A stretch of 64,000 nucleotides of DNA, from assembly GCF_001625215.2 (NCBI RefSeq), contig NC_030383.2:56844949-56908948 (forward strand), given 5' to 3'. This DNA comes from Daucus carota subsp. sativus (Eukaryota > Streptophyta > Magnoliopsida > Apiales > Apiaceae). The position numbers and the translations under genes are program-made. Below the pieces are notes generated by a model. The model was not told the DNA's origin. It was given only the letters and a program-made list of their open reading frames with translations, and ran no database searches. Numbering within the stretch: position 1 is the stretch's first letter; each line of letters opens with the position of its first letter. This document shows positions 1 to 60,713 of this stretch, one piece after another.

Positions 1-6665
<6,665 letters not shown>

Positions 6666-8162
6666 GAACCTGATATTGCAACTTAATGCATTCGATCTTT
6701 GTTGAAATATTGTGGGAAGTGGGGAATAATCAAGTTTATGAGACTCGTTACAATTCGGTGAACAATATCCTGCAAAAATATCACCAGGTATGGGAACTGC
6801 TCAGACAATAGTAGTGATGAAATCAAGGCATATTTAGCTCCAGCTTTTACTTGTTTGTTCTGGTCAATGAGTGTTCATAAGATGTTAAATGCTCAGCTCT
6901 CACATATACTCAAAACAAATGAATTGATCAGATTATGTTGTTTAGGCCATTGCTGTCGAATATATCAAGTAGCACCATTGCTATCGAATATATCATGTAG
7001 ATTCTAAGAATGTAAATAACTTTTTCATTTATCATGATTCTATATTTTATCAAGTACTAACTTATAAAACAGACTCCTCTCTTTTTGAAAAATCCTAAAA
7101 TTTTCTCAATCATTGGAGGAGTAGCCATATTTCTTTATTATGTGAAGGGCTTCCATCAGCTTTCATCGTTGAAAGAGAACGATGGAATATGAGTTAATTA
7201 AAATTATATTTATGAAAATCTTAAATAAGTGTCGAGTTCTGTCTTTAAATGTAAACAATTGAGGGAGAACGAGTTAATTAAACTATAGATATAAAAATCT
7301 TAAACAAGTGTCGAGTTTCGTCTTCTATAAACAATTGAGAGAAAACGATGACGCATGAGTTAATTATTTGTCGAGTGAGGTCCTGGAAACCTTCTATTTT
7401 AATTTTTGAAGCGTCATCTGTTAGATTGGATTATTTCCACAGACACACTTGCGCTCCGTTCTGAGTTTATAAAGAAAAAAATAAATAAAAAGTTCCGTAG
7501 TTTCTTTTTTTTCAAATCTTCTCAATATTGGTGAGAAGAAATCCTTTCAAACAAATATATAAGAGAAATATATTCAAATCCATAAATTCTTTTCATTCCT
7601 CCGCAAAATATCACTAAACAACATTTAAAGAAAATTAAATCTTTCTTCAGTTATAAAAAACTCCAAAATACAGCTTGAAACAACGATGACGACATCCCGA
7701 ATTGATGTATATCTGATTTGTTCTAAAATTTGAAAATCTGAATTAAAATTTTATTTATAATCCAAATAAATTTTGAGTTAGATTTTTGCTTATCGAAATA
7801 GATTGGTCTCAAAACTTAAAAATAATTAAGATCATACACGATCGAGACCTGATCGGAAATCCAAAAGAACGTTTGGATGACAATTAAACTAGATAATGAG
7901 AATGAAGGATATAAAGATGAATATGTCAAAGTGTGTGAAATGAATAATTGATCTATAAAATGAAAATGAGAATTATAATTTATAGCACAAAATGATTAAT
8001 ACAGACATCAACACTTATTTGAGATTATGATTATCATTAACGAAAATTGATCATGAACCAAACATATTCTAAATTCATCAAAGATTTTTAAACTCTCAAA
8101 CGGCGACGAGGGGAGTCTGCGCTCTGCGCTACAGCATACTGTCTGTTGCCTATATTTTGTTA
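6666..8162. other. Non-coding: ALE2 3' flank and start of GH17 duplication
   Basis: AT-rich. The first few hundred bases must contain the ALE2-like 3' UTR. At about 7160-7360 short phrases around 'gagttaatta' and 'aagtgtcgag' recur. From about 7735 the sequence is recognisably homologous to about 18955 onward, the upstream region of glucanase copy 3, so the glucanase duplication unit begins near here. No reading frame I can support. Confidence 0.6.
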
Positions 8163-8387
8163 CTTCTTTTGTCTTATAATAAAAATCACTTTGAATTTTT
8201 ACACGTAATTTGAGACGTAAAGAAAACATATTTTTACATATTATTTTTCGAATTTTCCTTTTTTGAATAAAAATATAGATATTAAATTTTTATTTAGGAA
8301 AATTTGAAAAATAATATATAAAAATATATTTTTTTATATTTCAAATTACGTGTAAAAAGTCAAAATGACTCTTATCATGAGACAGAG
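8163..8387. mobile_element. Stowaway-like MITE in upstream region of GH17 copy 1
   Basis: A 225-bp inverted-repeat element. The left arm (cttcttttgtcttataat...) pairs with the right arm read in reverse (ctctgtctcatgataaga...); the arms share 'tttttacacgtaatttga' exactly. Both ends are flanked by TA. The same position upstream of copy 3 (around 19419-19425) lacks the element, which gives an empty site and supports these borders. Confidence 0.8.
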
Positions 8388-9488: not shown

Positions 9489-10692
9489 ATGCATTCCAGA
9501 ATTCCCTTTGTAGTGTTGCTACTTTCCTTATTATCTTCAGGCTTTCTGCAGATTGCCTTAGGTGCGCGAAGCTATTAATTAGGCTTGTTTTGATAAATTT
9601 GTATAAATTTTCTAAAATTTACTAACGTGTACAAAATTTATTTTTGCAGGTCTCAGTAAGATAAGGCCCGACCAGGCGCAACCTGTAGGTGTTACCTATG
9701 GAACATTTGCTGACAATCAACCGTCAGCTCAAGAAGCCGTGGGTCTTGTCCAATCTGTGGGGATCAGGAGAATGAGACTTTATGGCCCGGACCATAATGC
9801 TTTGAATTCCCTCAGGAACACGGGCATTGAAGTTGTGCTTGGCGTCCCGAATGACCATCTCCCGTGGATTGCCTCTAACCAAGACAACGCCAAGCAGTGG
9901 ATCCAAGGCAATGTCCAAAACTACCAGAATGTCAATTTCAGGTTCATTGTTGTTGGCAATGGAATAACTCCGTTCCACGACCAGACTTCCCAGTTCGCGC
10001 AGTTTGTCCTCCCTGCCATGCAAAACATCCAGAACGCAATTTCAGCATTCGGCCTCCAGAACAAAATGAGAGTCACCACAGCCGTGGACCAATCCGAGAT
10101 GCTTAACGTGAACTATCAGCCATCACAGAGTGAATTCAGGCCCGAAGCCAGACAATTCATCGATCCAATCATCCAATTCCTAGTTCACAACAACAATGCA
10201 CCCTTGCTCGTCAACCTTCACCCTTTCTATAGCTTAGTGCACGTAAAGGAAGACATCCCTATGGACTTAGAAGCTCAAGCCCACCGCGAATCCAGAAGTG
10301 CCCGTTTTGATTACGCTACTTTCAGGTCTGCACAAACTCGTGTCCAAGACGGACCACTTATCTACACAAACTTGTTTGATTCAATGGTGGACAGTGTACA
10401 CGCCGCGCTAGAGAAGGCTGGCGGATCCTCCTTGGATGTGGTGGTCTCCGAAGTAGGATGGCCAACGGAAGGACACTCTGCAGCTACTATTGACAACGCC
10501 AGGACTCATAACAACGGATTGATTAATCATGTACAGAGCATTGGGACTCCAAAAAGACCTCAGAAGCGTATTGAGACTTATATCTTCAATTTGTTTGACG
10601 AGAACAAGAGGGATCCGGAGGTCGAGAGGCACTGGGGAATCTTCTGGAACAACAAACAAGCCAAGTACAACATCAATTTCCAAAATCAGTGA
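9489..10692 (+). CDS. GH17 glucan endo-1,3-beta-glucosidase-like protein, copy 1
   Basis: Two exons, 9489-9561 and 9650-10692, with the intron splitting a Gly codon right after the signal peptide, as is usual in PR-2 genes. Product 371 residues. Residues 1-25 form a secretory signal; mature protein starts near LSKIRPDQ. GH17 hallmarks: GVTYGTFADNQPS, RLYGPDHNAL, VNLHPFYS, VVSEVGWPTEG (nucleophile Glu about residue 292) and NLFDENKRDPEVERHWGIF near the C-terminus. The family hydrolyses cell-wall or fungal 1,3-beta-glucan. Unusually, the motif normally read as VGNE(V/I) is VVGNGI, placing Gly129 (GGA at 9961-9963) where the acid/base Glu is expected. The protein may therefore be catalytically weak or dead. 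No C-terminal CBM43/X8 domain or GPI tail is present. Family assignment is firm; enzymatic activity is doubtful. Confidence 0.93.
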
Positions 10693-12166: not shown

Positions 12167-12356
12167 CTAGCATAACGTACATATTAGCTACGATGTTCGG
12201 TATAATCTTAACAATATATACTGATTTGACCTATATCAAATTTGTTCAAAAAATTGAGAGTCTAAATATATATTTAATTTGTACTCCCAAATAATTTTTG
12301 AGTTAGATTTGTTTTTTTTTTTAAATTTACTAACGTGTATAAATTTATTATTGCAG

Positions 12357-13396
12357 GTGCTCTGAGGAACGACAACCAAGCGCAACCTGTAGGTGTTACC
12401 TATGGAACATTTGCTGACAATCAACCGTCAGCTCAAGAAGCCGTGGGTCTTGTCCAATCTGTCGGGATCAGGAGAATTAGACTTTATGGCCCGGACCATA
12501 ATGCTCTGAATTCCCTCAGGAACACGGGCATTGAAGTTGTGCTTGGCGTCCCCAACGACCATCTCCCGTGGATTGCCTCTAACCAAGACAACGCCAAGCA
12601 GTGGATCCAAGGCAATGTCCAAAACTATCAGAACGTCAATTTCAGGTTCATTGTTGTTGGCAATGGAATTACTCCGTTCCACGACCAGACTTCTTAGTTC
12701 GCGCAGTTTGTCCTCCCTGCCATGCAAAACATCCAGAACGCAATTTCTGCATTCGGCCTCCAGAACAAAATGAGAGTCACCACAGCCGTGGACCAATCCG
12801 AGATGCTTAACGTGAACTATCAGCCATCACAGAGTGAATTCAGGCCCGAAGCCAGACAATTCATCGATCCAATCATCCAATTCCTAGTTCACAACAACAA
12901 TGCACCCTTGCTCGTCAACCTTCACCCTTTTTACAGCTACGTGCACGTAAAGGAAGACATCCCTATGGACTTAGAAGCTCAAGCCCACCGCGAATCCAGA
13001 AGTGCTCGTTTTGATTACGCTACTTTCAACTCTGCACAAACTCGTGTCCAAGACGGACCACTTACCTACACAAACTTGTTTGATTCCATGGTGGACAGTG
13101 TCCACGCCGCGCTAGAGAAGGCTGGCGGATCCTCTTTGGATGTGGTGGTTTCCGAAGTAGGATGGCCAACGGAAGGACACTCTGCAGCTACTATTGACAA
13201 TGCCAGGACTCATAACAACGGATTGATTAATCATGTACAGAGCATTGGGACTCCAAAAAGACCTCAGAAGCGTATCGAGACTTATATCTTCAATTTGTTT
13301 GACGAGAACAAGAGGGATCCGGAGGTCGAGAGGCACTGGGGAATCTTCTGGAACAACAAACAGGCCAAGTACAACATCAATTTCCAAAATCAGTAA
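12357..13396 (+). pseudogene. GH17 glucanase-like pseudogene, copy 2
   Basis: Corresponds to exon 2 of copies 1 and 3, beginning after the intron acceptor ttgcag at 12351-12356. Exon 1, its signal peptide and the promoter are missing: around 12310 the distal upstream sequence (homologous to about 19030) jumps straight into intron 1 sequence (homologous to about 20610). Compared with copy 3 this is a deletion of about 1.6 kb. A C-to-T change also creates an in-frame TAG at 12695-12697, in place of the CAG codon of the other copies. The remainder to the stop at 13396 is open and nearly identical to copy 3, including the Gly in place of the motif Glu (12665-12667) and an intact SEVGWP. AATAAA follows at 13428. 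I infer no functional product. Confidence 0.9.
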
Positions 13397-20486: not shown

Positions 20487-21688
20487 ATGCATTCGAGAAT
20501 TCCCTTTGTAGTGTTGCTACTTTCATTATTATCTTCAAGCTTCCTCCAGATTGCCTTAGGTGCGTGCAGCTATTATATAAGCTTGTTTCGATAATTTTGC
20601 ACAATTTTTTTTTAAAATTTACTAACGTGTATAAAATTATTATTGCAGGTGCTCTGAGGAACGACAACCAAGCGCAACCTGTAGGTGTTACCTATGGAAC
20701 ATTTGCTGACAATCAACCGTCAGCTCAAGAAGCCGTGGGTCTTGTCCAATCTGTCGGGATCAGGAGAATTAGACTTTATGGCCCGGACCATAATGCTCTG
20801 AATTCCCTCAGGAACACGGGCATTGAAGTTGTGCTTGGCGTCCCCAACGACCATCTCCCGTGGATTGCCTCTAACCAGGACAACGCCAAGCAGTGGATCC
20901 AAGGCAATGTCCAAAACTATCAGAACGTCAATTTCAGGTTCATTGTTGTTGGCAATGGAATTACTCCGTTCCACGACCAGACTTCCCAGTTCGCGCAGTT
21001 TGTCCTCCCTGCCATGCAAAACATCCAGAACGCAATTTCTGCATTCGGCCTCCAGAACAAAATGAGAGTCACCACAGCCGTGGACCAATCCGAGATTCTT
21101 AACGTGAACTATCAGCCATCACAGAGTGAATTCAGGCCCGAAGCCAGACAATTCATCGATCCAATCATCCAATTCCTAGTTCACAACAACAATGCACCCT
21201 TGCTCGTCAACCTTCACCCTTTCTACAGCTTAGTGCACGTAAAGGAAGACATCCCTATGGACTTAGAAGCTCAAGCCCACCGCGAATCCAGAAGTGCTCG
21301 TTTTGATTACGCTACTTTCAGGTCTGCACAAACTCGTGTCCAAGACGGACCACTTATCTACACAAACTTGTTTGATTCAATGGTGGACAGTGTACACGCC
21401 GCGCTAGAGAAGGCTGGCGGATCCTCCTTGGATGTGGTGGTCTCCGAAGTAGGATGGCCAACGGAAGGACACTCTGCAGCTACTATTGACAACGCCAGGA
21501 CTCATAACAACGGATTGATTAATCATGTACAGAGCATTGGGACTCCAAAAAGACCTCAGAAGCGTATTGAGACTTATATCTTCAATTTGTTTGACGAGAA
21601 CAAGAGGGATCCGGAGGTCGAGAGGCACTGGGGAATCTTCTGGAACAACAAACAAGCCAAGTACAACATCAATTTCCAAAATCAGTAA
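20487..21688 (+). CDS. GH17 glucan endo-1,3-beta-glucosidase-like protein, copy 3
   Basis: Exons 20487-20559 and 20649-21688; 370 residues. Signal peptide about 1-25 (MHSRIPFVVLLLSLLSSSF), mature part from about ALRNDNQAQPV. Outside the start of the mature chain it differs from copy 1 at very few residues (for example RRIRLYG for RRMRLYG, SEILNV for SEMLNV). It has the SEVGWPTEG nucleophile motif (Glu about 291) and, as in copy 1, VVGNGI with Gly128 (20957-20959) in place of the acid/base Glu. It would be a secreted or vacuolar PR-2-like protein, perhaps still binding beta-glucan but of doubtful activity. Its promoter carries the 367-bp MITE. AATAAA lies at 21721. This and copy 1 are the two potentially functional members. 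Confidence 0.93.
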
Positions 21689-30564: not shown

Positions 30565-31019
30565 AACGTGTTTTATCATCCGAATCTCGAAGTTAATGAA
30601 GTGTACATTGAGTATGAGATTATATGCATGCACCAAATTTTCTGTCTAAATATTAAATTTTGTAAGGTGCAGAAATGGTGTCACTGACTCACTGTGTAGA
30701 GACAGGGATATGAAGAGATAATGGGCTGGCCTTGGGTGATTTGGGAGCATTAGCTTTTTAGAGTTCAATTAAAGTAAATCACAGTCTTTATTAAAGAAGA
30801 TACGTATATAAATTCTACTTAATGTGTTAATGTAAAATCTAATCATCAAACCCCATGTCCTCCTTATTTATATTCTCCTTGTTTAGCAACTCTGGAGTTC
30901 TCACACCCAATATTTAATACTCCACACTCTCTCAGCTCTCATCCACTGCACACCACTTATTTCTTTTTATATGCTTGTGAAACTAGCCAGAACAAACAGC
31001 CTTGTCAAGCCCTTTAACA

Positions 31020-32612
31020 ATGGTGGTCAAGAAGCCAAGAATTGTGATCATTGGTGCAGGAATGGCTGGCCTCACAGCTGCCAACAAGCTTTACACAGCT
31101 CAGAAAGATGGTGAGTCTTTTGAGGTGTGTGTGTTTGAAGGGGGGTCAAGAATTGGTGGAAGAATCAACACTTCAGAGTTTGGTGGTGATAGGATTGAGC
31201 TTGGTGCAACTTGGATCCATGGGATTGGGAACAGCCCAGTTCATAAAATTGCTCAGGAGACTGGGTCTTTACAGTCTGAGCAGCCCTGGGAATGTATGGA
31301 TGGGTTTCTTGATGACCCTGTTACAGTTGCTGAAGGGGGGTTTGAGGTGAGTCCATCACTTGTTGAGGTTATTACAAATCTGTTCAACTCACTTATGGAC
31401 TTTGCTCAGGGTAAGAATGTTGAGTTTCAAGAAAATGTTGCAGCCAAAGCTTTCTTGAATTGTGGGTCTGAAAAACCAAGTCTTGGCTTGTTTTTGAGGA
31501 ATGGGCTTGAGGCCTACTGGGATTCAGTGAAGAATGGTGAGGAAGATGTTGGTTGGAGTAGAAAGTTGCTTGAAGAAGCTATTTTTGCAATGCATGAGAA
31601 TACTCAGAGGACTTATACTTCAGCTGGGGATTTGCTGAATCTTGATTATAATGCTGAGAGTGAGTACAGGATGTTTCCTGGTGAGGAAATCACCATTGCT
31701 AAGGGTTACATGAGTATAATTGAATCTATAGCCTCTGTTTTACCGGATGGTATGATTCAATTAGGCCGAAAAGTCGAAAAGATTGAGTGGCAGCCCAGCA
31801 GTTGTCATGGCACAACTAGGCCAGTCAAGTTACATTTTTCTGATGGAACCTCTTTTTCAGCTGATCATGTAATTGTCACTGTGTCATTAGGTGTGCTTAA
31901 AGCTCGAATTCGCGATGAATCAACTATGTTCTTACCTCCCCTTCCCAGTTTCAAGAACCAAGCGATCTCGAAACTAGGATATGGAGTTGTTAACAAGTTG
32001 TTCTTGCAAGTAAACACAACCCATGATCAAGAAACCAATGAGTCAAGCAAATTCCCTTTCTTGCAAATGGCCTTCCATCAATCCGATTCGAAACTAAAAA
32101 ACCCCAACATTCCTTGGTGGCTGAGAAGAACGGCTTACATAAGTCCAATTTACAAGAAATCAAGTGTGGTTCTAGCTTGGCTGGCAGGAAAAGAAGCTTC
32201 TGCACTTGAGTCCCTTGATGATGAGGAGATCCTCAATAAGGTTTCGACAACAATCTCGAGTTTTCTGTCAAGTCCAACCAAATTATGCAATGGGAATGCA
32301 AGTTCTTTAGGCAATTATGATGGAAAAGAATTGAAATTTACCAATGTTTTAAGGACCAAATGGGGCACTGATCCATTGTTCATGGGCTCATATAGTTATG
32401 TAGCAGTTGGTTCAAGTGGAGAAGATATAGACAAGCTGGCTGAGCCATTGCCAGAAAATGGGTCAGCCTCAGCTCCAGCTCCACTACAAATCCTATTTGC
32501 AGGGGAAGCAACTCACAGAACTCATTATTCAACCACTCATGGAGCTTATTTTAGTGGCTTAAGAGAAGCTAATAGACTTCTCAAATATTACAAGTGTATT
32601 AGTGATCTTTAA
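31020..32612 (+). CDS. PAO5: Polyamine oxidase, PAO5-like (FAD amine oxidase)
   Basis: Intronless, 530 residues; ATG at 31020 is the first Met of the frame and precedes the FAD motif directly. It oxidises polyamines with FAD. The plant PAO5 clade back-converts thermospermine or spermine and is cytosolic. Visible: dinucleotide-binding VIIGAGMAGLTAANKL near residues 9-24, FEGGSRIGGRI, ELGATWIHG (substrate tunnel/FAD contact), KGYMSIIESIASVLP, VTVSLGVLK, and the C-terminal FAD motif FAGEATHRTHYSTTHGAY near residues 497-514. No signal peptide and no peroxisomal SKL-type ending (C-terminus is ISDL). A single exon and about 530 residues match the PAO5 clade, whereas PAO1-4 genes have many exons. 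No close paralog in the window. LDL-type histone demethylases are excluded by the absence of a SWIRM domain. Confidence 0.93.
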   Translation: MVVKKPRIVIIGAGMAGLTAANKLYTAQKDGESFEVCVFEGGSRIGGRINTSEFGGDRIELGATWIHGIGNSPVHKIAQETGSLQSEQPWECMDGFLDDPVTVAEGGFEVSPSLVEVITNLFNSLMDFAQGKNVEFQENVAAKAFLNCGSEKPSLGLFLRNGLEAYWDSVKNGEEDVGWSRKLLEEAIFAMHENTQRTYTSAGDLLNLDYNAESEYRMFPGEEITIAKGYMSIIESIASVLPDGMIQLGRKVEKIEWQPSSCHGTTRPVKLHFSDGTSFSADHVIVTVSLGVLKARIRDESTMFLPPLPSFKNQAISKLGYGVVNKLFLQVNTTHDQETNESSKFPFLQMAFHQSDSKLKNPNIPWWLRRTAYISPIYKKSSVVLAWLAGKEASALESLDDEEILNKVSTTISSFLSSPTKLCNGNASSLGNYDGKELKFTNVLRTKWGTDPLFMGSYSYVAVGSSGEDIDKLAEPLPENGSASAPAPLQILFAGEATHRTHYSTTHGAYFSGLREANRLLKYYKCISDL

Positions 32613-40997: not shown

Positions 40998-42717
40998 TGA
41001 GCTAAGCTTGAATTATTGCTTTTTTGTTCATGCACTTCACAAATACTGCTAGAACTTAACAAGTAAGAGAAGAGTGTAAGCAAGAGGAAAGTGAGTCTTT
41101 GCTTGCAATCTTTATTAGTATCTCTTGAAAAAGAGTTGCATTCTTTGTTTTGGCTCTTTTGTGCTTGGCATACAAATGTGAAAAAAGCCAACTTCAAAGC
41201 ACTTTAAAGGGAGATAATTGAGGAGTAGATATATCATAAATGTAATGTGTGTACAAATAGCTCTTAAGTCTCAACATTTTTTACACGAAACTTCTTTCTT
41301 CTATTTGAGGTACTTACAACTGCCTTTGATCTCACTTCTCTTGACTTTTTCTCTATCTCTCATCATTCTATAATACTACCTTTTATAATTCTTGGAAAAA
41401 GGTTCTATGCAAACCATGATAAACCGAGAACCCGAAAATTATGTTGAATAATATAAGATCCTGTTAGAGTATTTTGCGAAACCTTTGTTTTTTTGAAGAT
41501 AGTATTTTGTGGAAAGATAACTTATTTACTTAACATTATACCAGAGTTAAGCTCACTGACAGATCAAAAATATCAGGTTCGAGTTTTCCCACCCACCCGC
41601 ATTAAATATAATAATGCTTGTAGGAATTACCATTCAAGTTTCAGCACCAAACAATCTTCGTTTGGACCATGTATCTGGAAGGACGGTTGTATTTAGCATC
41701 CAAGCAAAGCACTAATATTCGATAAATAAATTTTGTATTTACACTTTTGGAGATTTTGTTGAAGACAATAATAAAGATTAGACAAAGATGGTTACACTAA
41801 AAACAGGTAGGTGTGTTATTAGTTCATTGCTTTATGGTTATGGCGATAATTTAATTATATGTTTTCTTTGCCTACTTAATTTGTAACGAAATGCAGAAGT
41901 TGTTATGAAAAGAGAAGACTTTTCCTACAACAGCAAAAATGAAACTAATTGATCTTAACGTCATGACCTGGTCACAGTTTCTGTTTGTTTCTCCAAATTA
42001 TCTGCTTTATATCTTGTACGTTTTTGCTTTAAAGCTATGCTTACATAATTTATATGGTTATACAATTAAACTTAGCTTAGCCTCGGATCGGAATCGGAAC
42101 TAATAATTCAGGTATTTATTTATCGAGGTTAAAATTAGATCGACTTTATCATTATTAGGATCTAAAAAGTTAGTCATTATTTAAAATGATTTATGTATTT
42201 AATGAATAGATAGAACTACTCGACTCCACTCAAATTGTTCGTGAGCATTTCGAATTTGACTCGATTTGATAAGTTTAACGATCAAACTCGACTCGTTAAA
42301 GTAAAAACTCGAACTCGATGAGAAAAAACCCGACTCGACTCGGTTCGTTTACCAGCATACTACTCATTATTTGTCAAGATTTTAAGACGAAAGTTGTGGT
42401 TTACAGAAATTTAGAAAGAATTCTAGCGTTTGCTTTTCAGTGGACATTAATTTGCTAAAAGGAATAGTAAAAGGTTTTGCTGGCACATGATTCCTTAGTT
42501 TAAATCTGTGTCTATTTCGGTTCCAAACTTCCAAGTGTTTTTCATGCATTTCTAGTGCCTGGGTTAAAAAAATACAAACACAAGTACTAATAAATCGGAT
42601 AGAAAAATAATAATCTCCTGCAGAAAGATGATGGGGCGATGGTCCCTCAGGTAATTGCTGTCAAACAACTTTCTGCGGCAGCTAAAATTAATCGCTGGTA
42701 GATGGCTGCACTAATCG
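40998..42717. other. Gene A upstream region and left part of B duplication unit
   Basis: 40998 to about 41940 is gene A's 5' flank. From 41942 to 42717 the sequence is collinear with 54738-55508 (both contain catgacctggtcacag and gaaagatgatgggg) and includes hAT-like 'gactcgactcg' sequence. No gene. Confidence 0.6.
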
Positions 42718-42922
42718 TGTTGGCATTACATGATTAATATTTATTCTCTATACTACACGTGTACATACAGCCTGTCAACAGCATATAGTTTGTTAGAGAA
42801 TTAGTTAGCTTGCTTGTATATATTGTAGTGTAAAGCACTCTGTAAGACTTAGTTAGTTGAATACAAGTTTTACTTTTCTGTTCTCTCTCTCCATGTTAGC
42901 TTAACAAACTGTGAGTTCAACA
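42718..42922 (+). repeat. 5' LTR of copia element
   Basis: Starts TGTTGGCATT and ends GAGTTCAACA; 205 bp, no difference seen from the 3' LTR. Confidence 0.96.
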
Positions 42923-42934
42923 TGGTATCAGAGC
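42923..42934 (+). other. Primer-binding site of copia element
   Basis: tggtatcagagc immediately after the LTR, the classic complement to the 3' end of plant initiator methionine tRNA. Confidence 0.92.
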
Positions 42935-43218
42935 GACACCGATCTACTCATCTCCGTTCATCTCCGCCGTAACTCCGCTGCTTGTTCCTTCATCTCCGCT
43001 GCTTGTTCATCTCCGGTGATTTCTCCGGTGATTTCGTTTCTCACTTTATTTCGTTGTTTCTCTCTGTTACTGTACATATTTGTTGCTTCGTTGTTTTGTT
43101 GATTCGTGATTGTTCAATCTTGCTCGTTTTACTCTGGTGATTGTTCGTTACCATAGCGATTAATTCAGAGATTTAGTCTTCACTTCTTAATTGATTGATT
43201 ATTTTGAGTTGTAACATC

Positions 43219-46200
43219 ATGAGTTCTTCAAACAATCATGTTTTCGATCACAATTCTACCACTCTTCAAGATAATCCACTGCATTTGCAATCATCAGACA
43301 GTCCAGGAATGAAACTTGTGAGTGATTGTTTTGATGGAACTGGATTTAGTAGTTGGAAAAGATCAATGAGAATTGCCTTATCTGCTCGCAACAAGTTAGG
43401 GTTTGTTGATGGAAGGATTCCAGAACCAGATCCTTCTTCTCCTTCGTTTACCAGCTGGTCTCGTTGTAATGACATGGTAATTTCATGGATTCTTGGTGCC
43501 TTGGACAAGACCATTGCTCGTAGTGTTAGTCGTGCTGATTCGGCTTATCAAATGTGGAAAGAACTTGATGAGCGCTATAATGTCTCTAATGGAACACAAC
43601 TGTTTGCTTTGCAAAAGGATCTTTGTGAAATACGTCAAGGAAATAGCACTGTTGCTGATTACTTCACCAGATTGAAAGTCTTGTGGGATGATGTTGATTC
43701 TCTTTGCCTCACTCCTGTTTGCACCTGTGAAGCAGCACCTAAGAATGCTGTTTTGCGTCAGAATCAACGAGTTGTCAAATTCCTTATGGGTCTAAATGAA
43801 TCTTACAATGTGATGAGAGGTTCTATTCTGATGTCCAATCCTCTGCCATCCATCAGTCAAGTGTACAATCTTCTTCTACAGGAAGAAGCTCAACGAGAAA
43901 TTCATTCTTCTCACAATCTGATAACAGATTCTACATCACTTCATGTCAATTCCAAGCCATTTTCTTCTCAGACTTCTCAGGCTTCTCAGGGTCAATTCAA
44001 GAAATCTAATCTTACTTGCAAATACTGCAAGAAGACAGGGCACACTATTGACAAATGTTACAGAGTTCATGGCTTCCCATCTGATTTCAAGTTCACAAAG
44101 TCTACTAAAAGGTTTGCTGCAAATGCTGATGTCCTCCAACATGATTCTACTCCTGACACAGTTGCAGATTCTACAACTTCATCAAATAATTCTGCTCCAG
44201 CTATGACTCCAGAATTGTACTCTCAATTGCTCCAGCTTCTCAAAACTACTAAGCCACCAGATCAAGATACTTCTTATGCAAACTTTGCTGGTAACTCTCT
44301 CTGTTCAGACTCTATAGTTGCTTGTATGTCTCAATCTGACTCTGCTACTTGGATCATAGATAGTGGGGCTAATGATCATATGTGTTCACAGAAACATTTA
44401 TTCAGTTCACTTACCATCCTAAACACACCTCTAACCATATCTCTGCCTAATGGTCACATTTTACACATCACTTCCATTGGCACTGTTCCAATATCACATG
44501 ATATCACTCTTGCCAATGTCTTATATGTTCCACTGTTCCAGTTCAATCTTCTTTCTGTGAGCAAATTAACAAGTCAGCTGAATTGTACCTTACAATTCAC
44601 TAATGACTTTTGTTATTTGCAGGAATCTTCACAGAAGAGACAACTGGAAATTGGTAAAGCATTTAAAGGCTTGTATCTTCTTTCATATTCCAGCTCTGCA
44701 TCTTCATCATCTTCATCAGACACTTCTGTCACCTTTCCAAATGTCATTTCTGCTTCTATTGCTAATACTAGTAAGACTTTTGCTAGTAATAATAAAGAAT
44801 GCATGATATGGCATACCAGATTAGGTCATTTACCTTTTGACAAACTTAAATCATTACATATTTGTAATGTTGACTCTATGCTTGATGTACCTTGTATTGT
44901 TTGTGCTAAGGCAAGACAACAAAGGTTGCCATTTCCTGTCAGTCATATTCACAGTAAAAGTCCTTTTCAATTAATTCATGTTGATGTTTGGGGCCCATAC
45001 AAGGTTCCCACTTACAACAAATTCAGATATTTTCTTACCATAGTAGATGATTTCTCTAGAGCTACTTGGACCTATTTGCTTGCTAACAAAAGCTCTGCTT
45101 TTGACTTCCTTAAATCATTCATTATCTTAGCTGAGAAACAATTCAAATTACCTGTACAATCAGTAAGGTCTGATAATGCTTTAGAAATTGGTCTCAGTCA
45201 TGCTGCTAAAGATTTCTTTAAATCTAAAGGCATTCAACATCAGACTTCTTGTGCTTTTACTCCACAACAAAATGGAGTTGTGGAGAGAAAACACAAGCAT
45301 TTACTAGAGACAGCCAGAGCTCTTCTCTTCCAATCACAGCTTCCTGTTAAGTTCTGGGGTGATTGCATCCTTACAGCCACTCACCTTATTAATCTCTTTC
45401 CTTCCAGAGTTTTAAATAATCTTTCTCCTTATGAAGTATTACTCAAGGAAAAACCCAGTTTTGATCACTTAAAACCTTTTGGTTGTTTAAGCCTGGTGAC
45501 TACTCCAAAACCTCATAGGGATAAATTCACCCCCAGAGCAATCACTTGTGTCTTTCTTGGTTATCCACAGGGCAAGAAAGCCTATAAATTTTACAGTCTG
45601 GAAACAAAGCAAATTTTAATCTCCAGAGATGCTGTTTTCTATGAAAACCATTTTCCATATGTAGATGTTAATTCCTCTACATTCTTTCCCTTACCTGTCC
45701 CTGATTTCCCTATTCCTGATCAATCTATTCCTACTGTTGTGTCACCATCACAGTCACCATCACAGTCTATCCCTTCACAATTTTCTACACAGTCTCCCAC
45801 ACACTCTTCTACTCCTACAGTCTCTCATACACCTATACAGTCCTCCTCTTCATTTCAACAATCTGAAAGTTCTGTCTCAGATTCACCACAGCCACCACCT
45901 CTCAGAAAATCAACCAGAACTTCAAAACTGCCAAACTATCTAACAGATTATGTTCATTCTGTACATAATGCTTGTTCAGATTCTTTGTGTTCATGCACCA
46001 TTACCTCAAATTGTATTCCTCTTAATTCATTGCTTTCTCCTCAATCTGTTTGCTGTGCTATTCCCACACCACTTCCTCTCCAAATACCAGTTGCAGAGCC
46101 TAAATCTTTTGCAGAAGCAATGATCTACCCAGAATGGCAGCAGGCTGTGGCTGCTGAGTTTTCTGCATTAGAAGCCAATAATACCTGGAAGTTAGTCCCC

Positions 46201-47646
46201 TTGCCTCCTGGTAAAAAGGCAATCTCCTGTCGTTGGGTTTTCAAAGTAAAACATAATGCTGATGGTTCCATCGAGCGTTACAAAGCTCGACTAGTTGTTA
46301 AAGGGTTCACTCAAAAGGCTGGTATTGATTTTACTGAAACTTTTTCTCCAGTTGTTAAGATGACAACTATTCGAACTCTTGTTGCTACTGCAGTTAAGAA
46401 ACAATGGCACATGTACCAGCTAGACGTGAACAACGCCTTCTTACATGGCGATTTATTTGAAGATGTTTATATGCAATTACCTCCAGGTCTTGAAGTTAGT
46501 GATTCCACATTAGTTTGCAAACTCATTAAATCCCTTTACGGACTTCGTCAAGCATCCAGAAATTGGAATTACAAACTCTGTTGTGCTCTCTTGTCACGGG
46601 GATATTCTTATTCCAAGAATGACTACTCACTCTTCTACAAAAAAACAGGATCATCTACTGTTTTTCTAGCTGTCTATGTTGACGATATCTTACTGGTTGG
46701 GGATGACTTAACTGAGATTACTGCTGTAAAAGCCTTTCTCAACGACACCTTCAAAATCAAAGACTTGGGAAATCTGAGTTATTTCTTAGGTCTTGAGTTT
46801 CAGAATGTTTCATCTGGTATGGTTGTTTCTCAAACCAAATTTACTCAAGACTTGCTCAAAGAATTTGATTGTCTCGATGCTCCACCTGCAGTCAGTCCTC
46901 TTGATCCTACTATTAAACTTATCCATGATCAAGGCGATCCTGTTTCTGACTTTTCTTCATACAGAAAGTTGGTTGGCAAACTGAATTTTCTCACTAACAC
47001 ACGTCCTGATATATCATTTGCTGTCCAACACCTTAGTCAATTCATGAGCTCTCCTCGAGTTCCACATTGGGAAGCAGCTTTACATGTTCTCAGATACCTT
47101 AAGCTTACTCCCAGTCAAGGTTTATTTTACAACTCAAATCCAGTATACAATCTTACTGCCTATTGCGATGCAGACTGGGCTGCTTGCCCACATACTCGAA
47201 AATCTGTGAGTGGTTTTGTTGTTATGCTAGGTGACAGCATTATTTCCTGGAAATCAAAGAAACAGCACACTGTTTCTTTATCTTCAGCAGAAGCTGAATA
47301 CCGTTCTATCCGCCGCATTACTGCTGAACTTGCTTGGCTATCTCGTCTTCTAAATGAACTTTCTGTTCCAGATGTGACACCTATTCCAGTGAAGTGTGAT
47401 AGTCAATCTGCAATATACATAGCTAAGAACCCAGTTTTCCACGAGCGAACGAAACACATTGATTTGGACTGCCATTTCGTTCGTGAAAAACTAAGTTCTG
47501 GTCTTATTTCACTTTCCTACACTCCTACAGCATTACAGCTTGCGGATGTGTTCACCAAAGCCCTGAATGGTGTTAAACATCAGAACATTATGTCCAAGTT
47601 GGGTGTGCTCCCCTCCAACTTGCGGGGGGGTGTTGGCATTACATGA
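43219..47646 (+). CDS. Copia gag-pol polyprotein, intact
   Basis: A single frame of 1475 codons. The start is the ATG at 43219 (ATGAGTTCTTC), the first Met with a leader of normal length; upstream codons of the frame have only near-cognate TTG. Domains in order with approximate residues: gag ([12 protein letters not shown], 20-210); CCHC zinc knuckle [14 protein letters not shown] (267-280); aspartic protease [12 protein letters not shown] (377); GAG-pre-integrase [10 protein letters not shown]; integrase with DDE residues in HVDVWG (587), RSDNA (651) and GVVERK (688); reverse transcriptase from [17 protein letters not shown] (990) with [13 protein letters not shown] and YVDDILLVG (1153); RNase [18 protein letters not shown] (1316) and LSSAEAEY. 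No frameshift or stop. The last few codons and TGA lie inside the 3' LTR. It could encode everything needed for transposition. Confidence 0.96.
47622..47630 (+). other. Polypurine tract of copia element
   Basis: gcggggggg abutting the 3' LTR; it lies within the polyprotein frame, near its end. Confidence 0.8.
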
Positions 47647-47835
47647 TTAATATTTATTCTCTATACTACACGTGTACATACAGCCTGTCAACAGCATATA
47701 GTTTGTTAGAGAATTAGTTAGCTTGCTTGTATATATTGTAGTGTAAAGCACTCTGTAAGACTTAGTTAGTTGAATACAAGTTTTACTTTTCTGTTCTCTC
47801 TCTCCATGTTAGCTTAACAAACTGTGAGTTCAACA
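47631..47835 (+). repeat. 3' LTR of copia element
   Basis: Reads the same as the 5' LTR over 205 bp. It supplies the polyprotein stop codon (TGA 47644-47646). Confidence 0.96.
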
Positions 47836-48226: not shown

Positions 48227-51200
48227 TCAATTTTCTGATGGCAATGTTCTTTTGACCAACGAAATCTCGAAAGGATTACCTCCCCATTCTTCAAAAATAA
48301 CCACCTGATTTCCGGTTGGTTTTAACAATGATCGGGGAACATGATACCTGAAAACAAAAGTTCATCATAAGAATTTAGCATTTTTTTCTTTTTTTTTTCC
48401 TTTCTATGGCAAAAATTGACACTTCAAATTGTTTAAAGCTTGTATTACCATTTTTGAGAGGGTTGCCCGCAATTGCTCAAGCATTTAGTCGCATCGTACA
48501 TGCCAGCATAATTGCAATTACCACAACCGCTACCAAGAGCTATGTAACCAGGCCAATGGCGTCCAACACTTTCACCATTTATCCAAATTTGACCTTTCCC
48601 CATACTACCCATATCTAATGCTAATGGGTCAGATCCTTCTGGAGCATCGAAAGTACCCTGCAAAGTGTGAAACAATTATACAAAAAACCTCATTTACCAT
48701 ATACAGCTGTAATTCAATCTATATCTGTCAAATTGGCGCATATAAATATGAAAATGTGATAAATTTACCTTGTACCATGATAGCGGTTGCTTCTGAGCTA
48801 CCAAGGATCCTTGTACCCACTCAGCAGAAGAACTTTCACCAAGTGTATGCAGACTCGAAGATATGCCTTTTAAACCAACCTTCTCAGCATCAGAAAAATA
48901 GAGATAAAAATTAGCCTTTTATCAGTATCTCAAGTCTTTGACATTGTATCGACTTGATTTCAAATAAAGTGTCCCTCTCTTAATTATAAGAAACTGTAGA
49001 TGTATGCAAACCTTGTAGGACCAATTCTGCTTTGTTAAGTCTCGCCCGTTTAAGGTAACTGGACCAAGAACCCCTATGTTGTATGTCTCGAAATGAACAC
49101 CAACATTCTGAAACAGATTATAAAGGAATCTAAGAATGCTAAGTCTAGAGGACATATAATATGATCTAAACAAAAATTTCATGGCTAAAGTTTTGATGAG
49201 CTAACCGCAAGACCCATAGAAGAGCTCAGCAAGGAAATCTTGTTAATACCGGCCTTCAATTTCACAGTGCCTTTAAATGTCAGTCTTGTATCTTCCAGAC
49301 TTCCGTAAGCAACTCCTGTCATTAAAAAGAGATTTTGTAAGTTAAAGAACGTTCTAGACATTTGAACAAAATTATGACAGCCATTTACCTGACGATTGTC
49401 CATTGACAAAAACCTGCAAAGCGTGTCCTGCTGACATAACAGTAAGAATAGGATCTTCTCCATTCTTGAGGAACGCTTCATTCGATGATATATTCACACT
49501 GGAGAGAAAATAGTAAGAACATAAACTTTGTTGTACAAAGATTTTTAGAGCGGTAGGAACAAATGCTTTAAGGACAAGATAACGATTAGCATTCGTAGAG
49601 GATAGTTCTTACTCTACGAGGTACCACAAATAATCTGAAAAATCTTTAGTGAGATTTAACTGCTCATACAACCCCCACTTTGTGAAAGTATCACCATCAT
49701 CAGCAGAAGGAGCTCCTTCAGTGGACGATTGCCAATTGAAATCTGCTTTCACAGGGACCATAGTCATATGAACACTAGTGGGTACCTGCAAAGTTTATAT
49801 ATTTTGGCGTGACAAGTAGATTGAAGTAATTATTGTAAATCATAATGCATTAGCTTCAAATTTCCTTACCTTGGCAGAGTTGAAAACTTCATTTTTGCAG
49901 TCTGGAAGAATGCTGATGGACCATGGAGGAAGGTCATATTGCTTATTAAAATAGTCAACTTTCGCCCAAGATTCAGTATCATAGTTGGCAAGAAATGCAG
50001 CACACGCCCCTGATTTTGCCCTATACTCGTGAGCCTGTAAATAGAGATATGTGAGAAGGACAATTTACTTGAACAAAACCAAAAGCATTGGAGAACTGCT
50101 TAAGTCAGCTAAGTTAGATTGACCTCGGAGTTTTTGCCAAGTGACCAAACCGTAGGATCTGCTGAAACTAAAGCTGCTTCAGCTTGCTTGATGGCACTAT
50201 GCATTAGTTTCAAATGTCCATATTTTGGTTCCCTCGCTAATCCTAATACACGATCCATCATGAACATTGTCAAAAAAAATTTATGAACGTATAACCTTCG
50301 ACTAATGAACAAAGTTGAAACACAAATTAAGAAACTGTGCATACCGTATTCGTCAAGAGGTGCATCATAGTCATAGCTAGTGGCAACAAACATACCCGAA
50401 GATTCCCGGCCAAAATTAGTTCCTCCATGGTACTAATACAGTAATATTCAAGTCGACATGTAAGAGAAAAGCATCAACTCAGCCGAAATAACATCATTTA
50501 TCAAATGACTTAGTTTCACTTCAGATAATGTGAAAAGCTTCAACTTACCATGTAATAATTAAAGAAAGAACCCTTATTTTGCACGAATCGTAGGACTGCA
50601 AAAGCCAGGTCTTCGGCTGGTCTATAAGGGACCGCGCCACCAAATTCTGTTAACCTGCATATAATCATGGACCATGTATTATCCCACAGTAAATAATAAG
50701 TAAAGGAGTTGCAGTGTGATTAGTTGAGGGCCCTTGGCCAATAGCCTCAATCTTAGGTAGATAATCCCATGCTTTAGGCAGATTCAGTATATTAAATTTG
50801 ATATAGTGAAGATTATATCCGTTTAGCTTACCAGCTTGTCCAGACTTCAGTCCACATCTTGGGTTTATACGACTTCTTCGGAAAGAATCCCTCACAGTAG
50901 AAACCATTGCAAGTGTCTATCTGCAATTACAAATAATAAAACATGATTCTATTTTCAAAGCCAAATAAATAGAAGTAGCTGCCTTTACTTCTTGTACTAC
51001 GTCAAATATGTGCGCGCTTTCATTGAAAATCACTTACAATTGGATCAGGTACATCGTCTTGTTTGCACATGATCCATGGTACACCAGTATTAAGGCCTAC
51101 AGCCATGCTTGAGAACCATTTCGTATAAGCTTTTCCTGGAGCACCTATTTCCCATTCTACCGGACCATATTCATTTTCAATCTGCATAACGTAATCATCA

Positions 51201-52239
51201 AAAAAAATGTCACTCTTTTTTACTAATTCCAAAATAACAAAATATTAAACTCGTGATTCAGTTTATTAAAAAAAAGCATAAGGACCTGAGACATGATAAT
51301 TGGTCCGCCCTGGGGTTCAAACAACTTGTTCGACTTCATCATGTTGACAATCATTTCTGTAAAACGTTGCATTTCCGCCTTTGTTTCATAAGAGTCAAAA
51401 TCAGTACACAATCAGAAGTCAAGAAAGTGATGAATTTAATAATTCTTAAATATAACTTACCTTAAAAGGATCATTGTCAGTTCTAAATGAAATTCCAGGT
51501 ATAAACTTAAGCCAGGAAGGAAATCCCCTGCATCAAAACAGAATAATCCACATGAGAATATGAGATCATTACATCTACAGAGACAGACAGATAGTTAAGT
51601 TACAATTCTACATGTTAAAGTACATGGATTACCCAAAGTTCCATTCAGCACAAACATAAGGGCCAATTCGGAGGTGGACATAAAGGCCAGCTTCTTGCAC
51701 GGTTTTAATAAAACGAACAAGATCATACCTTCCCTCAAAATTAAACTGGAAAGGGCACAAATTCATGAATCATTCAGTTTAGCACAAAGAAAACACACAT
51801 ATACACTCCATTAGTAAAATTTCGAGTTTTCGACATTACTTTTCCTCGAGTAGGTTCATGTCCATTCCAGAACACATAAGTCTGAATAACATCCAAGCCT
51901 CCATATTTAGCCTTTTTTATAAGATCAGGCCACATCTACAATTGCAAAAATCAAGAAGATACACTAAATTAAAGACTTCATTTTTATCTACCAATATTAC
52001 ACCAAACAACAAAATTAATAATTTGTGTGTGTGTGTGTGTGTGAAGTGCATTAGGGAAAGATGACCTCAGGAGTGCTTCTTGGGTAGTGAATAGAACCAG
52101 AAATGAGAATCCTTCTTTGACCATTAATGATGATAGCTTTATCATCATAAGTAACTGTAGCACTAACAGAACTACAAGTGCATAAGAATATAACAACCAG
52201 AGACACAAGCCAACTTAATATTTTACATACTAAATCCAT
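48227..52239 (-). CDS. Beta-galactosidase (GH35), gene B
   Basis: Eighteen exons in frame: 52066-52239, 51840-51935, 51633-51745, 51461-51527, 51286-51378, 51038-51181, 50832-50920, 50549-50654, 50345-50432, 50124-50242, 49870-50034, 49613-49785, 49389-49498, 49206-49315, 49012-49107, 48769-48879, 48449-48657, 48227-48347; 727 residues. Hydrophobic signal peptide [19 protein letters not shown] to about residue 27, then [16 protein letters not shown]. Acid/base Glu about 185 (IENEYGP) and nucleophile Glu about 254 ([10 protein letters not shown]) are intact. Secreted cell-wall exo-galactosidase by family. Compared with A and C, the exon at 49012-49107 is 15 bases shorter: five codons (after VTLNG) are missing in frame. 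No lectin domain. Intron 1 holds a (TG)n tract at 52025-52042. TATA-like tatataag lies at 52325-52332. Near-duplicate of gene C. Confidence 0.93.
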
Positions 52240-52324
52240 AGTAAAAGGACTGTTATTTTGAGTATTACAAATTTGATTCTTGATTTTTCACTTCACAACA
52301 TATTACTCCCATAGAAAATAACAT

Positions 52325-52332
52325 CTTATATA
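52325..52332 (-). promoter_or_regulatory. TATA box of beta-galactosidase B
   Basis: tatataag on the minus strand, 86 bases before the ATG, conserved at 60246-60253 before gene C. Confidence 0.6.
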
Positions 52333-52339
52333 GTGGAGG

Positions 52340-52510
52340 GAGTATTAAAGACGCTGATAAACTGTCACTAAAGATTAAGTAGCGGTTATAAATAATAATA
52401 TCTATTAAAGACGCTGATAAACGGCCAACTAAAGATTAAGTAGCGGTAATAAATAATAATATCTCGGTGATAAGCTGTCATAAAAGCTAAAGATAAGATA
52501 TTCCAATGTG
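52340..52510. repeat. Degenerate direct repeats in gene B promoter
   Basis: Units containing 'ttaaagacgctgataaac', 'ctaaagattaagtagcgg' and 'aataataatatct' are repeated twice, with a third partial unit (ggtgataagctgtc). The same family is expanded upstream of gene C (about 60290-60710). Confidence 0.75.
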
Positions 52511-54578
52511 AAAAATATTGATAAAGGGGCATAATGAGTAAATTATCTTTTAGCATACAAATTAATGATGATAAATGAGAGAGATATCTTCTATTTTGTT
52601 TGAAAAGAAAAATGTTGGATGAATAAAAATTTTGCGTGCATTATCCGAAAAACCATATTTTATTCAATCTTAAAAAGAAACTAGGCTTGAATTGGAATTT
52701 TGATGAATTTTATATATGAATTTTAATGAATTGTATCTAATTTTGATTTTTTATTTTATCTGAAGTCTAGCAAACTACATATCCCAGAAATTATTTCCGA
52801 ATCGTAATTAATAATTGATTTCACTCGTATTAAAAATAATGCAACCCACTATATGCAAATAAACCAGTAAACCACCCAATAAAAATAATCTTTTGTTTGT
52901 CAGGTTAATTGGAGAAAAAAAAGGACACAAGATTTTGGGGTAGCATTACTCGATAGACTGAGTCTCAAACTAATTTTAAATATATTTCCAAATATCAAGT
53001 AGGGTAGTGCTACATATTCATATTTTATATCAATTTTTTCTGGAATGACGTGACAAATAAATTACAGTTTTTAATCGGATGATTTATATGTATACAAAGA
53101 GTCTTCATTATTATTAACATGAATCGAACGATTAATACAAAATATTAATAATTAAAATTTGAATAATTTTTAAATTATCTAGATTTTTATATCAAATATA
53201 CGTATATTTTTATCATGCCGCGTCTACTCTGCTACATCATCTACTATAAGGCCCACATAATCTGGGATAAGGCCCGAATCAATTTCACAAGATATGATTA
53301 TGGAAATATAAAAAGCAGGACGGAAAATTCGGGATATAAGTCTTGAATTAATTTCGCTTTCATATTTACCTCGTTTCTTTTTTTTTTTTTGTCGGACGGT
53401 TTCATTTTCATATTTACCTCTAAAATAAATAAAAAAGTATAAAATCTAAACTGACAGGGATTCTTATGGAAATTGAATTTAACTGAATTAGTGATCAGTC
53501 GGTCACTACCATTATATTCATAATATTTTGTGTCATGTTATATTCTGATTGTATTTACAATATTTTGATGTTATAGCGAGTTTTTTCCGCCCCATATTCA
53601 ATATGGTGTGTACTTTGTTGTACTTGTGCTAATGAAAATCAATAAACGTATACTTGTAAATAAAAAAAGTTATGAGCAATCAAACTAGTTAATCCCATTA
53701 TTGCTCATACAAAATGACATCAAGGTCATCCAAGTAAAAATATCTCATGTCGGGTGTTTTGCTCTCTTTTTTTCACACTCATATTGATTATACAATACGA
53801 AATATATTGGTTATACAATACAAAACCTACATTTAAGAATTATCCCTCATTAATCTCTGTTACGTAGCAAGTAATAAATTTTCTTAGAGGGTTTATTTGT
53901 TCAATTGGACAAACTCTATCGGAGTCTCAACTCTCAACAGCCTTATAATATACGAGTATTTGTGTTTTAATAACATCTCGAAGAGTAATATGTATATTGT
54001 TGGCCGCTAAATTAATCGGGTAAAATTTTTGTTAAGGAGGGCAATGATTACTCCATTGACAAGGCTTTTATCGTTGGAAATGCTCTACTACGTACAGTCT
54101 ACAATGCATTTTCCTTAAACATCACAATGAAACATCTTTCTTTTATGGAGAGGAGATGAAACATTTGAAATTTTACAAACTATGAGAAAGACTACACAAA
54201 TAATTTCATGTCTGAACCAGTCTCATGCAATATTTGGTGACTGTGACCGGAAAAGGCTACAGAAATAAAAGCTCATGAACAAGCAAAAAAGAAAAGAAAA
54301 TTCTTGGGACAAGACAAAAAATATATATATTCATATATTGGAAGAAGCTTATTTGGTTACAAGAGGCATAATATACATTTACATTCGAAATCTATATTGG
54401 CCTATTGGTGTTTCATTTGACTATACATTTTCAACACCACAATTGAAGGGGCGCTTGAATGAACCAGGAAATTATCTGGTTTCATTCTGAGAGCTGTAAT
54501 ACAAGTATTCAAGTAAAAAAATTCTATTTATATTCTTCTGTATAGTATAGTGCTGCAGTAGCAGCTTCGATTTTCCGA
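52511..54578. other. Spacer upstream of gene B, duplicated upstream of gene C
   Basis: No gene. Collinear with about 60950-63366 (shared aaactaggcttga, ttaataattgatttcactcg, ctactataaggcccac, ttgttcaattggac). The right copy has an extra segment at about 62308-62548. Confidence 0.65.
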
Positions 54579-54687
54579 TCACAGTGTTCTTCTGACCAGT
54601 GAAATCCCGAATGGATTACCTCCCCATTCTTCAAAAAAAACCAGCTGATTTCCGGTTGGTTTTAACCATGATCAGGGAACATGATAC
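54579..54687 (-). pseudogene. Orphan last exon of a beta-galactosidase (gene D-type)
   Basis: Equivalent to exon 18 of gene D (63367-63475): same 109-base length and stop position, with [18 protein letters not shown] and TGA preserved. About 50 bases of intron 17 follow (to about 54737). There homology to gene D stops and sequence matching gene A's upstream region (41942 on) begins. No other exons are nearby. It marks the joint of the tandem duplication. Confidence 0.88.
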
Positions 54688-54737
54688 CTGAAAACAAAAG
54701 TTTGACACTAGAATTTCAGCAACTCTTATTTCTTTAT

Positions 54738-55508
54738 TAAACTAATCGATCTTACCGTCATGACCTGGTCACAGAATCTGTTTATTTTTCCAAATTATTT
54801 GCTTTATCTCTTCTATGTTTGCTTAAAAGCTATGCTTACATAATTTATATGTGTATACGATATACTTACCTCGTCTGGGATCAAAATCCGAACAAATGAT
54901 TCGGGTATTTATTTATCGAGGTTAAAATTATATCGACTATATTAGTGTTAGGATCTAAAAAGTTAATTCATTATTTGAAATGATTTATGTATTTAGGATA
55001 TGCATTTAACGAACTGCTCGAACTACTCAACTCGACTCAAATTGTTCGTGAGCATCTTAAACTTTACTGATTTAATAGTTTAACCATCAAACTCGACTTG
55101 TTAAGTAAAAATTCGAACTCGATAAGAAAAAACTTGACTCTGCTCAGTTCATTTAGCGGCGTACTACTCATCATTTGTCATGATTTTAATACAACAGTTT
55201 GTGCTTTACAGAAAATTTAGAAAGTATTCAAGTGTTTGCTTCTCAGTGGACATTAATTTGCTAAAAAGAAAACGTTTTGCTGGCACATGATTCCTTAGTT
55301 TAAATTTATGTCTATTTTGGTTCCAAGTGTTTTCCATGCATTTCTGGTGCCTGGGTTAAAAAACTACAAACACAAGTACTAATAAACCAGATAGAAAAAA
55401 AAAATCTCCTGCAGAAAGATGATGGGGAGATGATCCCTCAGGAGATTGCTGTCAAACAACTGTCAGCGGTAGCTAAAAATAATAGCTAGTAGATGGCTGC
55501 ACTAATCA
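54738..55508. repeat. Segmental duplication of 41942-42717
   Basis: Collinear and near-identical to gene A's far upstream region, with small indels. Its right end, ctaatca, is the empty counterpart of the copia insertion site. Homology continues directly into the gene B and gene C 3' flanks (47841 and 55509). Confidence 0.88.
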
Positions 55509-55556
55509 CATGCCAGGAATTCGGATCCAAATTATCATTGTCGCATGTATAACTAT

Positions 55557-55737
55557 AGAGTAGTGCTGGGTGCACAAAATTGTGTACATAAAATTTGTAC
55601 ATAATGACATGTCAGTTGATGTGGTGAGTTTTAATTGAAGTTGTTGATGTAAATACAGAGGGTCCATTCCAATTAAAACCACCACATGTCATTATGTACA
55701 AAATCTTGTACACAATTATGTACACCAAGCATTTTTC
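55557..55737. mobile_element. hAT-like MITE, 181 bp
   Basis: Inserted in the C unit with perfect 8-bp duplications ataactat (55549-55556 and 55738-55745). The B unit (around 47880-47890) has a single ataactat. Inverted arms share 'aattgtgtac' and 'tgacatg' motifs. Confidence 0.82.
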
Positions 55738-56117
55738 ATAACTATATCATGTTGCATGTATGACTAAATCCTACCGAACTACAGGCACAACCATATCATA
55801 TCGCATGGATCAACCCAACTATCATACCGGTAACTCAATGTTGTGTAGTTTCTATTTTCTAATTTTTATAAAGATTCTATTTGGTAAAGAAAGTTCTTGT
55901 AGCAAGACAAAAAGTTATATATTGGAATAAGCTTTGGTTACATGTGGCTCAATACACATTCATAATTAAAATCTATATTGGTCATTTTGTGCTTCATTCC
56001 ACTATATGTTCTCAACACCACAATTGAAGGGAGCCCAAATTCTAACCAGAATTTTATCTAGTATGAACTTGTGATATCTTTCTTCTGTTTAAATTTAGTG
56101 CAGCAGCAGCAGCTACT

Positions 56118-60159: not shown

Positions 60160-60245
60160 CGTAAAAGGACTGTTAATTTCAGGATGACAAATTTGGTTCT
60201 TAGATTTTCCACTTCACAGCATATTGCTATCATGGAAAATAACAT

Positions 60246-60253
60246 TTTATATA
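60246..60253 (-). promoter_or_regulatory. Proximal TATA box of beta-galactosidase C
   Basis: tatataaa on the minus strand, 87 bases before the ATG at 60159. Confidence 0.6.
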
Positions 60254-60289
60254 GTGGAGGGATTTCGACAAGATAAGAATAAGTAGTTG

Positions 60290-60712: not shown

Positions 60713-60713
60713 A

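Follow-up and report, generated by a model that had tools for sequence, protein, structure and literature searches.

An old clade of GH17 proteins without the catalytic acid/base glutamate is maintained under purifying selection

The stretch of DNA analysed here (the window, 64,000 nucleotides) carries a GH17 gene, copy 1, in which the general acid/base Glu is replaced by Gly. This Glu was lost long ago, and the genes that share the loss form one clade, which was shown by calculation to be under purifying selection and to have been maintained after loss of the catalytic residue. We assign a probability of roughly 0.55 to the reading that the clade is an old, maintained family of secreted, non-hydrolytic, glucan-binding GH17 pseudoenzymes; its fold, secretion, loss of hydrolysis, glucan binding and biological role are what we infer. 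To the changed codon described in an earlier note, the analysis adds a Tyr-to-His change at 10219-10221 and a loop insertion at about 10243-10305.

The three window copies and the acid/base position

Copy 1 encodes a protein of 371 residues with a hydrophobic N-terminus and a single GH17 domain. PF00332 was the sole Pfam family found in it at E 0.001, and the strength of that match bears out the earlier assignment to GH17. Copy 3, with 370 residues, is as complete as copy 1, and copy 2 is broken. The features were located as follows.

9489..9561, + strand: copy 1 exon 1 (73 nt), hydrophobic leader MHSRIPFVVLLLSLLSSGFLQIAL, joined in frame to exon 2 across GT..AG
9562..9649, + strand: copy 1 intron, GTGCGC..TTGCAG (GT-AG)
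9650..10692, + strand: copy 1 exon 2, GH17 domain, PF00332 E 2.7e-87 over profile 1-306
9961..9963, + strand: acid/base position, GGA = Gly104 of P0001 (barley EII Glu93)
10219..10221, + strand: cleft Tyr (barley EII Tyr170) changed to His190, CAC; His in 12/12 clade rows, Tyr in 35/35 other GH17 rows
about 10243..10305, + strand: clade-specific longer loop after NxHP, with K199, D/E201, P203 and R218
10450..10452, + strand: nucleophile Glu267, GAA (barley EII Glu232), kept in 12/12 clade rows
10600..10602, + strand: Glu317 (barley EII Glu280), kept in 12/12 clade rows
about 12313-13396, + strand: copy 2, broken and without exon 1; TAG at 12695-12697, Gly codon at 12665-12667
20487..20559, + strand: copy 3 exon 1
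20649..21688, + strand: copy 3 exon 2, GH17 domain, PF00332 E 3e-87 over profile 1-306
20957-20959, 21215-21217 and 21446-21448, + strand: copy 3 codons for Gly, His and the nucleophile Glu

The earlier note had read GGA (Gly) at the acid/base codon in copies 1 and 3 and in pseudogene 2, and GAA at the nucleophile of copy 1, and both readings were correct. The GGA at 9961-9963 is in frame within FRFIVVGNGITPFHD, and all three copies have GNG where the aligned GH17 enzymes have GNE. Over 333 compared residues, copy 3 matched copy 1 at 331 and copy 2 matched it at 328. In the 1017 bases of exon 2 that they share, copies 1 and 3 were 98.6% identical; identity elsewhere was 85% in the intron, 94% in the 5' flank, 95% in the 3' flank and 93% in exon 1. 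The start of exon 2, which encodes the mature N-terminus, diverged strongly (9650-9675 versus 20649-20671, 12 of 20 aligned bases identical); these first bases and exon 1 were conserved no better than the flanks.

The copy 1 protein matched seven distinct PDB sequences by phmmer, all of them plant GH17. Five of the seven were aligned, one being the potato enzyme with its nucleophile mutated, with 6jms and 1ghs outside the set, and residues were mapped onto barley EII through its phmmer alignment row. This alignment to GH17 proteins of known structure, proposed in the earlier note as a check, placed Glu opposite Gly104 in 5/5 chains with no gap within four residues. Neither the alignment with the solved chains nor that of the 47 GH17 rows put an alternative Glu at the acid/base position. 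A shifted alignment with another Glu as acid/base was rejected, since the residues after GNG are variable and include no conserved Glu. Asp146 as a new acid specific to the clade was weakened by the presence of Asp at this position in the Hevea and banana chains. A local pseudogene or a sequencing or assembly error was ruled out because Gly also occurs in another 12 distinct gene copies, which lie on other contigs.

A single-sequence structure model of the window protein had a mean pLDDT of 43. Foldseek searched with this model placed GH17 chains at ranks 1-9, but with a TM of about 0.4 and 13.6-15.4 A rmsd, values that do not speak for any fold. The (beta/alpha)8 barrel is instead implied by sequence similarity, by which copy 1 would have the GH17 fold. 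In the portion of PMC11080057 used here, Glu93 and Glu232 are the catalytic pair of barley EII and Tyr170 belongs to the conserved residues of the cleft that binds substrate. The same text reports no products for barley E93A and E94A, which carry Ala at the acid/base Glu, although its Table 1 prints '+' for HvGII E94A on beta-1,3-glucan, at odds with the text. The excerpt of PMC4033164 calls the two catalytic Glu 'strictly conserved', and the paper finds high conservation of both in the algae, land plants and fungi that it covers.

The window holds several further genes. Tandem beta-galactosidase-like genes occupy 48379-63884 on the - strand, with GH35 (PF01301) and BetaGal_gal-bd in two fragments; the repeats lie 7882 and 7258 bases apart, the last is cut by the window end, and a weaker copy of the repeat (61%) lies at 36530. 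A Copia-type LTR retrotransposon at 42717-47835 contains an open frame of 1483 codons and has at its two ends direct repeats of 206 bp with 100% identity; it is probably a recent insertion. An ALE2_N domain (3399-3857) and a kinase domain (5847-6662) within 3399-6665 are probably parts of one receptor-kinase gene, and a 536-codon open frame at 31002-32612 carries a flavin amine oxidase domain (PF01593) over nearly its whole length.

The clade in the genome and its linked changes

We searched the window's own 441-Mb genome with the PF00332 profile and obtained 110 matches. The acid/base site was read in 77 loci, chosen for a profile range covering or nearly covering it; the other 33 matches were the three window copies and 30 fragments outside the site. 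The residue was Glu in 42 of the 77 loci, Gly in 18, Lys in 1 (L031), Asn in 2 (L053 and L073) and Asp in 1 (L061). Another 11 had an aligner gap though their text was GN or GD followed by EP, and 2 were cut off. The 18 Gly loci represent 12 distinct gene copies, with six copies on contig C6 doubled by a perfect inverted repeat. This repeat, at C6:34.49-34.66 Mb around about 34.575 Mb, was identical on the opposite strand over 9001/9001 and 6001/6001 bases (L080 versus L090, L091 versus L092), and is either an assembly error of the fold-back type or a palindrome of very recent origin.

Twelve intact clade genes were found on five contigs (C1, C2, C3, C5 and C6): copies 1 and 3, six genes on C6, and L014, L026, L033 (Gly) and L031 (Lys). 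Eleven of the 12 have Gly at the acid/base position and one has Lys; among the Gly codons, 8 are GGA and 3 are GGG. The ten genes outside the window showed 54-74% identity to copy 1. Broken clade copies were L051 (C2), L070 (C7) and window copy 2, and L052 (C7) was interrupted. The GNK gene L031 (C3:2552011-2552982) is separated by about 56 kb from ordinary GNE genes clustered at C3:2.609-2.628 Mb. Beyond this genome, no relative usable as an alignment row was confirmed in 21 viral-contig stretches or in 82 genome-contig stretches, with one peptide pattern used for each of the two collections.

A tree was built from 47 full-length rows, 12 from the clade and 35 from other GH17 including the Asn row L053; it excludes L051, L052, L054-L077 and the duplicates. 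All 12 clade rows fell on one side of a single branch with support 100/99. A larger group of 20 rows (100/99) contained the 12 clade rows, L027 and seven rows (L001-L006 and L030) which we take to be defence-type (PR-2-like) glucanases. The sister of the clade within this group and most of the branching order inside the clade had no clear support. In an 18-row tree made without the two diagnostic columns, the clade again stood apart from six outgroup rows (100/100). The earlier note had placed the Glu-to-Gly change before the tandem duplication; it is indeed far older, marking a clade spread over several contigs. L053 fell outside the clade in the tree, and L061 and L073 are other GH17 loci with a residue other than Glu at this position.

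In 23 columns the residue is conserved across 34 or all 35 of the other GH17 rows. The clade keeps 20 of these in at least 11 of its 12 rows and Pro156 in 10/12, and two are lost in 12/12 rows, namely the acid/base Glu104 and Tyr190, the latter replaced by His. Trp270 and Tyr238 are kept in 12/12. The nucleophile is encoded by GAA in 11 of the 12 genes and GAG in 1, and the Glu317 codons also vary synonymously. Retention of the cleft is incomplete, with Asp57 present as D/E in 9/12 rows, Phe275 as Phe in 9/12 and Glu288 as Glu in 6/12 (barley numbering). In the longer loop after the NxHP motif, presumably beta6-alpha6, K199, P203 and R218 are present in 12/12 clade rows, and position 201 is acidic in 12/12 (D in 9, E in 3).

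Glu (GAA) can become Lys (AAA) or Gly (GGA) in one step, and two steps separate GGA from AAA. The Lys gene L031 and the Gly gene L033 were sisters in the 18-row tree, where the branch joining the other ten rows had support of 52/87. From these codon steps, the sister pair and this branch, it appears that the Tyr-to-His change may have come first and that Glu may then have been lost more than once.

Two distinct genes on C6 have a Gln/Gly-rich stretch before a GH17 domain of the GNG type and in the same frame. L080 (reverse strand 3737-5632) is a 632-codon open frame with a stretch of 282 residues, 123 Gln and 79 Gly among them, and L081 (reverse strand 6465-8345) is a 627-codon open frame with a stretch of 261 residues. 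Inspected only roughly, the 900 bases upstream of L080 gave no convincing leader exon. Hydrophobic leader-like starts were present upstream of three of five loci looked at (L014, L026 and L031), and a similarly rough inspection gave no leader upstream of L033 or L051.

Selection and age

Copies 1 and 3 differ by 12 synonymous changes, one of them in the stop codon, and 2 nonsynonymous changes. Their dN/dS, a calculation that the earlier note had called for, was 0.044 (0.048 without the stop). Three other close clade pairs gave 0.147 (L009-L012), 0.184 (L016-L021) and 0.186 (L043-L047). Neutrality was improbable for each of the four pairs, with P from 4e-7 to 2e-4 for kappa 1-4 and counts rounded to whole changes. 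The earlier note had argued for retention from two open reading frames, which is a weak basis in copies 98.6% identical; dN/dS supports it better. Synonymous divergence between clade lineages ran from about 0.9 to saturation, and the clade is therefore old.

Broken copy 2 gave a dN/dS of 0.038 against copy 1, with two double-change codons uncounted, a value that points to a recent break or to conversion. Given this low value in a broken copy, the test speaks for the lineage and is no proof that any single copy works today.

Candidate functions and known systems

The product of these genes would be a protein of the GH17 fold with a hydrophobic leader, its general acid/base gone and most of its cleft intact. 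Without the acid/base, the protein should be unable to hydrolyse beta-1,3-glucan by normal double displacement. Callose and pathogen glucan are substrates of GH17 enzymes. Because most of the cleft and the nucleophile have been kept under selection, ligand binding would be the simplest retained function, and the clade probably consists of lectin-like proteins that bind beta-1,3-glucan, either callose or glucan of microbial origin, in the apoplast or cell wall. Anchoring or cross-linking of the protein at that site would fall to the Gln/Gly-rich members.

The strictly kept nucleophile seems to exceed what a pure binder would need, and it fits altered catalysis too. A tentative alternative, which we consider unlikely on balance, is an enzyme of altered mechanism in which the nucleophile still attacks the sugar, acting as a hydrolase with a new substrate or as a transglycosylase. 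The leaving group would be protonated by a substitute acid (His190, Asp146 or Asp/Glu201 of the loop), or the substrate would have a good leaving group that needs no acid, as in myrosinase. The presence of the nucleophile, Glu317, Trp270 and Tyr238 in 12/12 rows is consistent with such an enzyme, as is the linkage of the acid/base loss to Tyr-to-His in 12/12 and to a loop acidic at 201 in 12/12. Glucanosyltransferases occur within GH17 according to the part of PMC9745967 consulted, though G7048 there keeps both Glu. However, Asp146 is also present in ordinary GH17 chains (Hevea, banana), one clade member has Lys at the acid/base position, and the sole model, at mean pLDDT 43, offers no usable geometry for a substitute acid. 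In its specific form, with E-to-G, the fixed Y-to-H and the acidic loop together making a nucleophile-only GH17 transferase or activated-glucoside hydrolase, and a Gln/Gly-rich fusion in two genes, we hold the idea to be similarly doubtful.

It is less probable still that the clade members are decoys or inhibitors, inactive paralogues that bind pathogen glucanase inhibitors (or pathogen enzymes) and so spare the active ones. The Phytophthora XEG1 decoy is a known precedent. The clade is multi-copy with tandem clusters and sits in the 20-row group (100/99) with the seven defence-type rows and L027, and the phrase 'paralogous decoy' occurs in the excerpt of PMC8960721. However, the low dN/dS of the close pairs is unlike the usual mark of an arms race.

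A storage or structural wall protein, in which the GH17 barrel is a mere stable scaffold as in the GH18 proteins narbonin and concanavalin B, is improbable: a barrel serving purely as scaffold should have lost its cleft, and here most of it, including the nucleophile, is kept. The two distinct C6 genes with a Gln/Gly-rich stretch in frame with the domain would be the clearest case for this explanation, and GH18 seed proteins without catalytic residues do exist (PMC3091745, in the section available). Neutral decay, with dying genes and a meaningless acid/base change, would account for broken copy 2, L051 and L070 and interrupted L052, but is very hard to reconcile with 12 intact genes, large silent divergence, dN/dS of 0.04-0.19 in four close pairs and linked substitutions fixed in the clade.

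We retain glucan-binding pseudoenzymes as the preferred reading. The earlier note had offered a non-hydrolytic role or an alternative proton donor, which is still a reasonable pair of options. A clade that breaks the two-Glu rule under purifying selection is a convenient case for finding out what a glucanase fold can do once the acid/base is gone. Tallies of 'beta-1,3-glucanase genes' for plant genomes may also include proteins that do not cut glucan; the clade makes up 12 of the 47 full-length rows here.

No comparable GH17 clade was named in the titles and abstract openings of the matches listed in the open-licence PMC literature. The closest known proteins are the plant GH17 enzymes of solved structure (Hevea 4hpg, potato 3ur7, banana 2cyg and barley EII 1aq0), which aligned over the whole domain with phmmer E from 3.5e-87 to 4.4e-70. 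The clade resembles them in keeping the nucleophile and most cleft residues, and differs in its Gly or Lys for the acid/base Glu, His for Tyr170 and a longer loop. A likeness of another kind is to myrosinase, a GH1 retaining glycosidase in which the acid/base Glu is changed to Gln and which acts on an activated substrate with ascorbate as base. Like the clade it lacks the acid/base Glu; it belongs to a different family.

Glycosidase pseudoenzymes are already known from plant GH18 (PMC3662789 and PMC3091745, as excerpted) and beetle GH28 (PMC6549527, likewise). The GH18 lectins, storage and inhibitor proteins (TCLL, XIP, narbonin and concanavalin B) have the fold without chitinase activity in the parts of PMC3662789 and PMC3091745 cited, and differ from the clade in family and in sugar. 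Tamarind TCLL binds sugar, according to the same portion of PMC3662789, whereas for the GH17 clade the ligand would be glucan; TCLL has lost three catalytic residues (Ala128, Val130 and Phe186 in their place), and in the clade the nucleophile stays. The GH28 pseudoenzymes of leaf beetles, in the text of PMC6549527 available, are inactive paralogues beside active ones in a multigene family, as proposed for the clade; those are insect polygalacturonases, with a role shown there by gene silencing.
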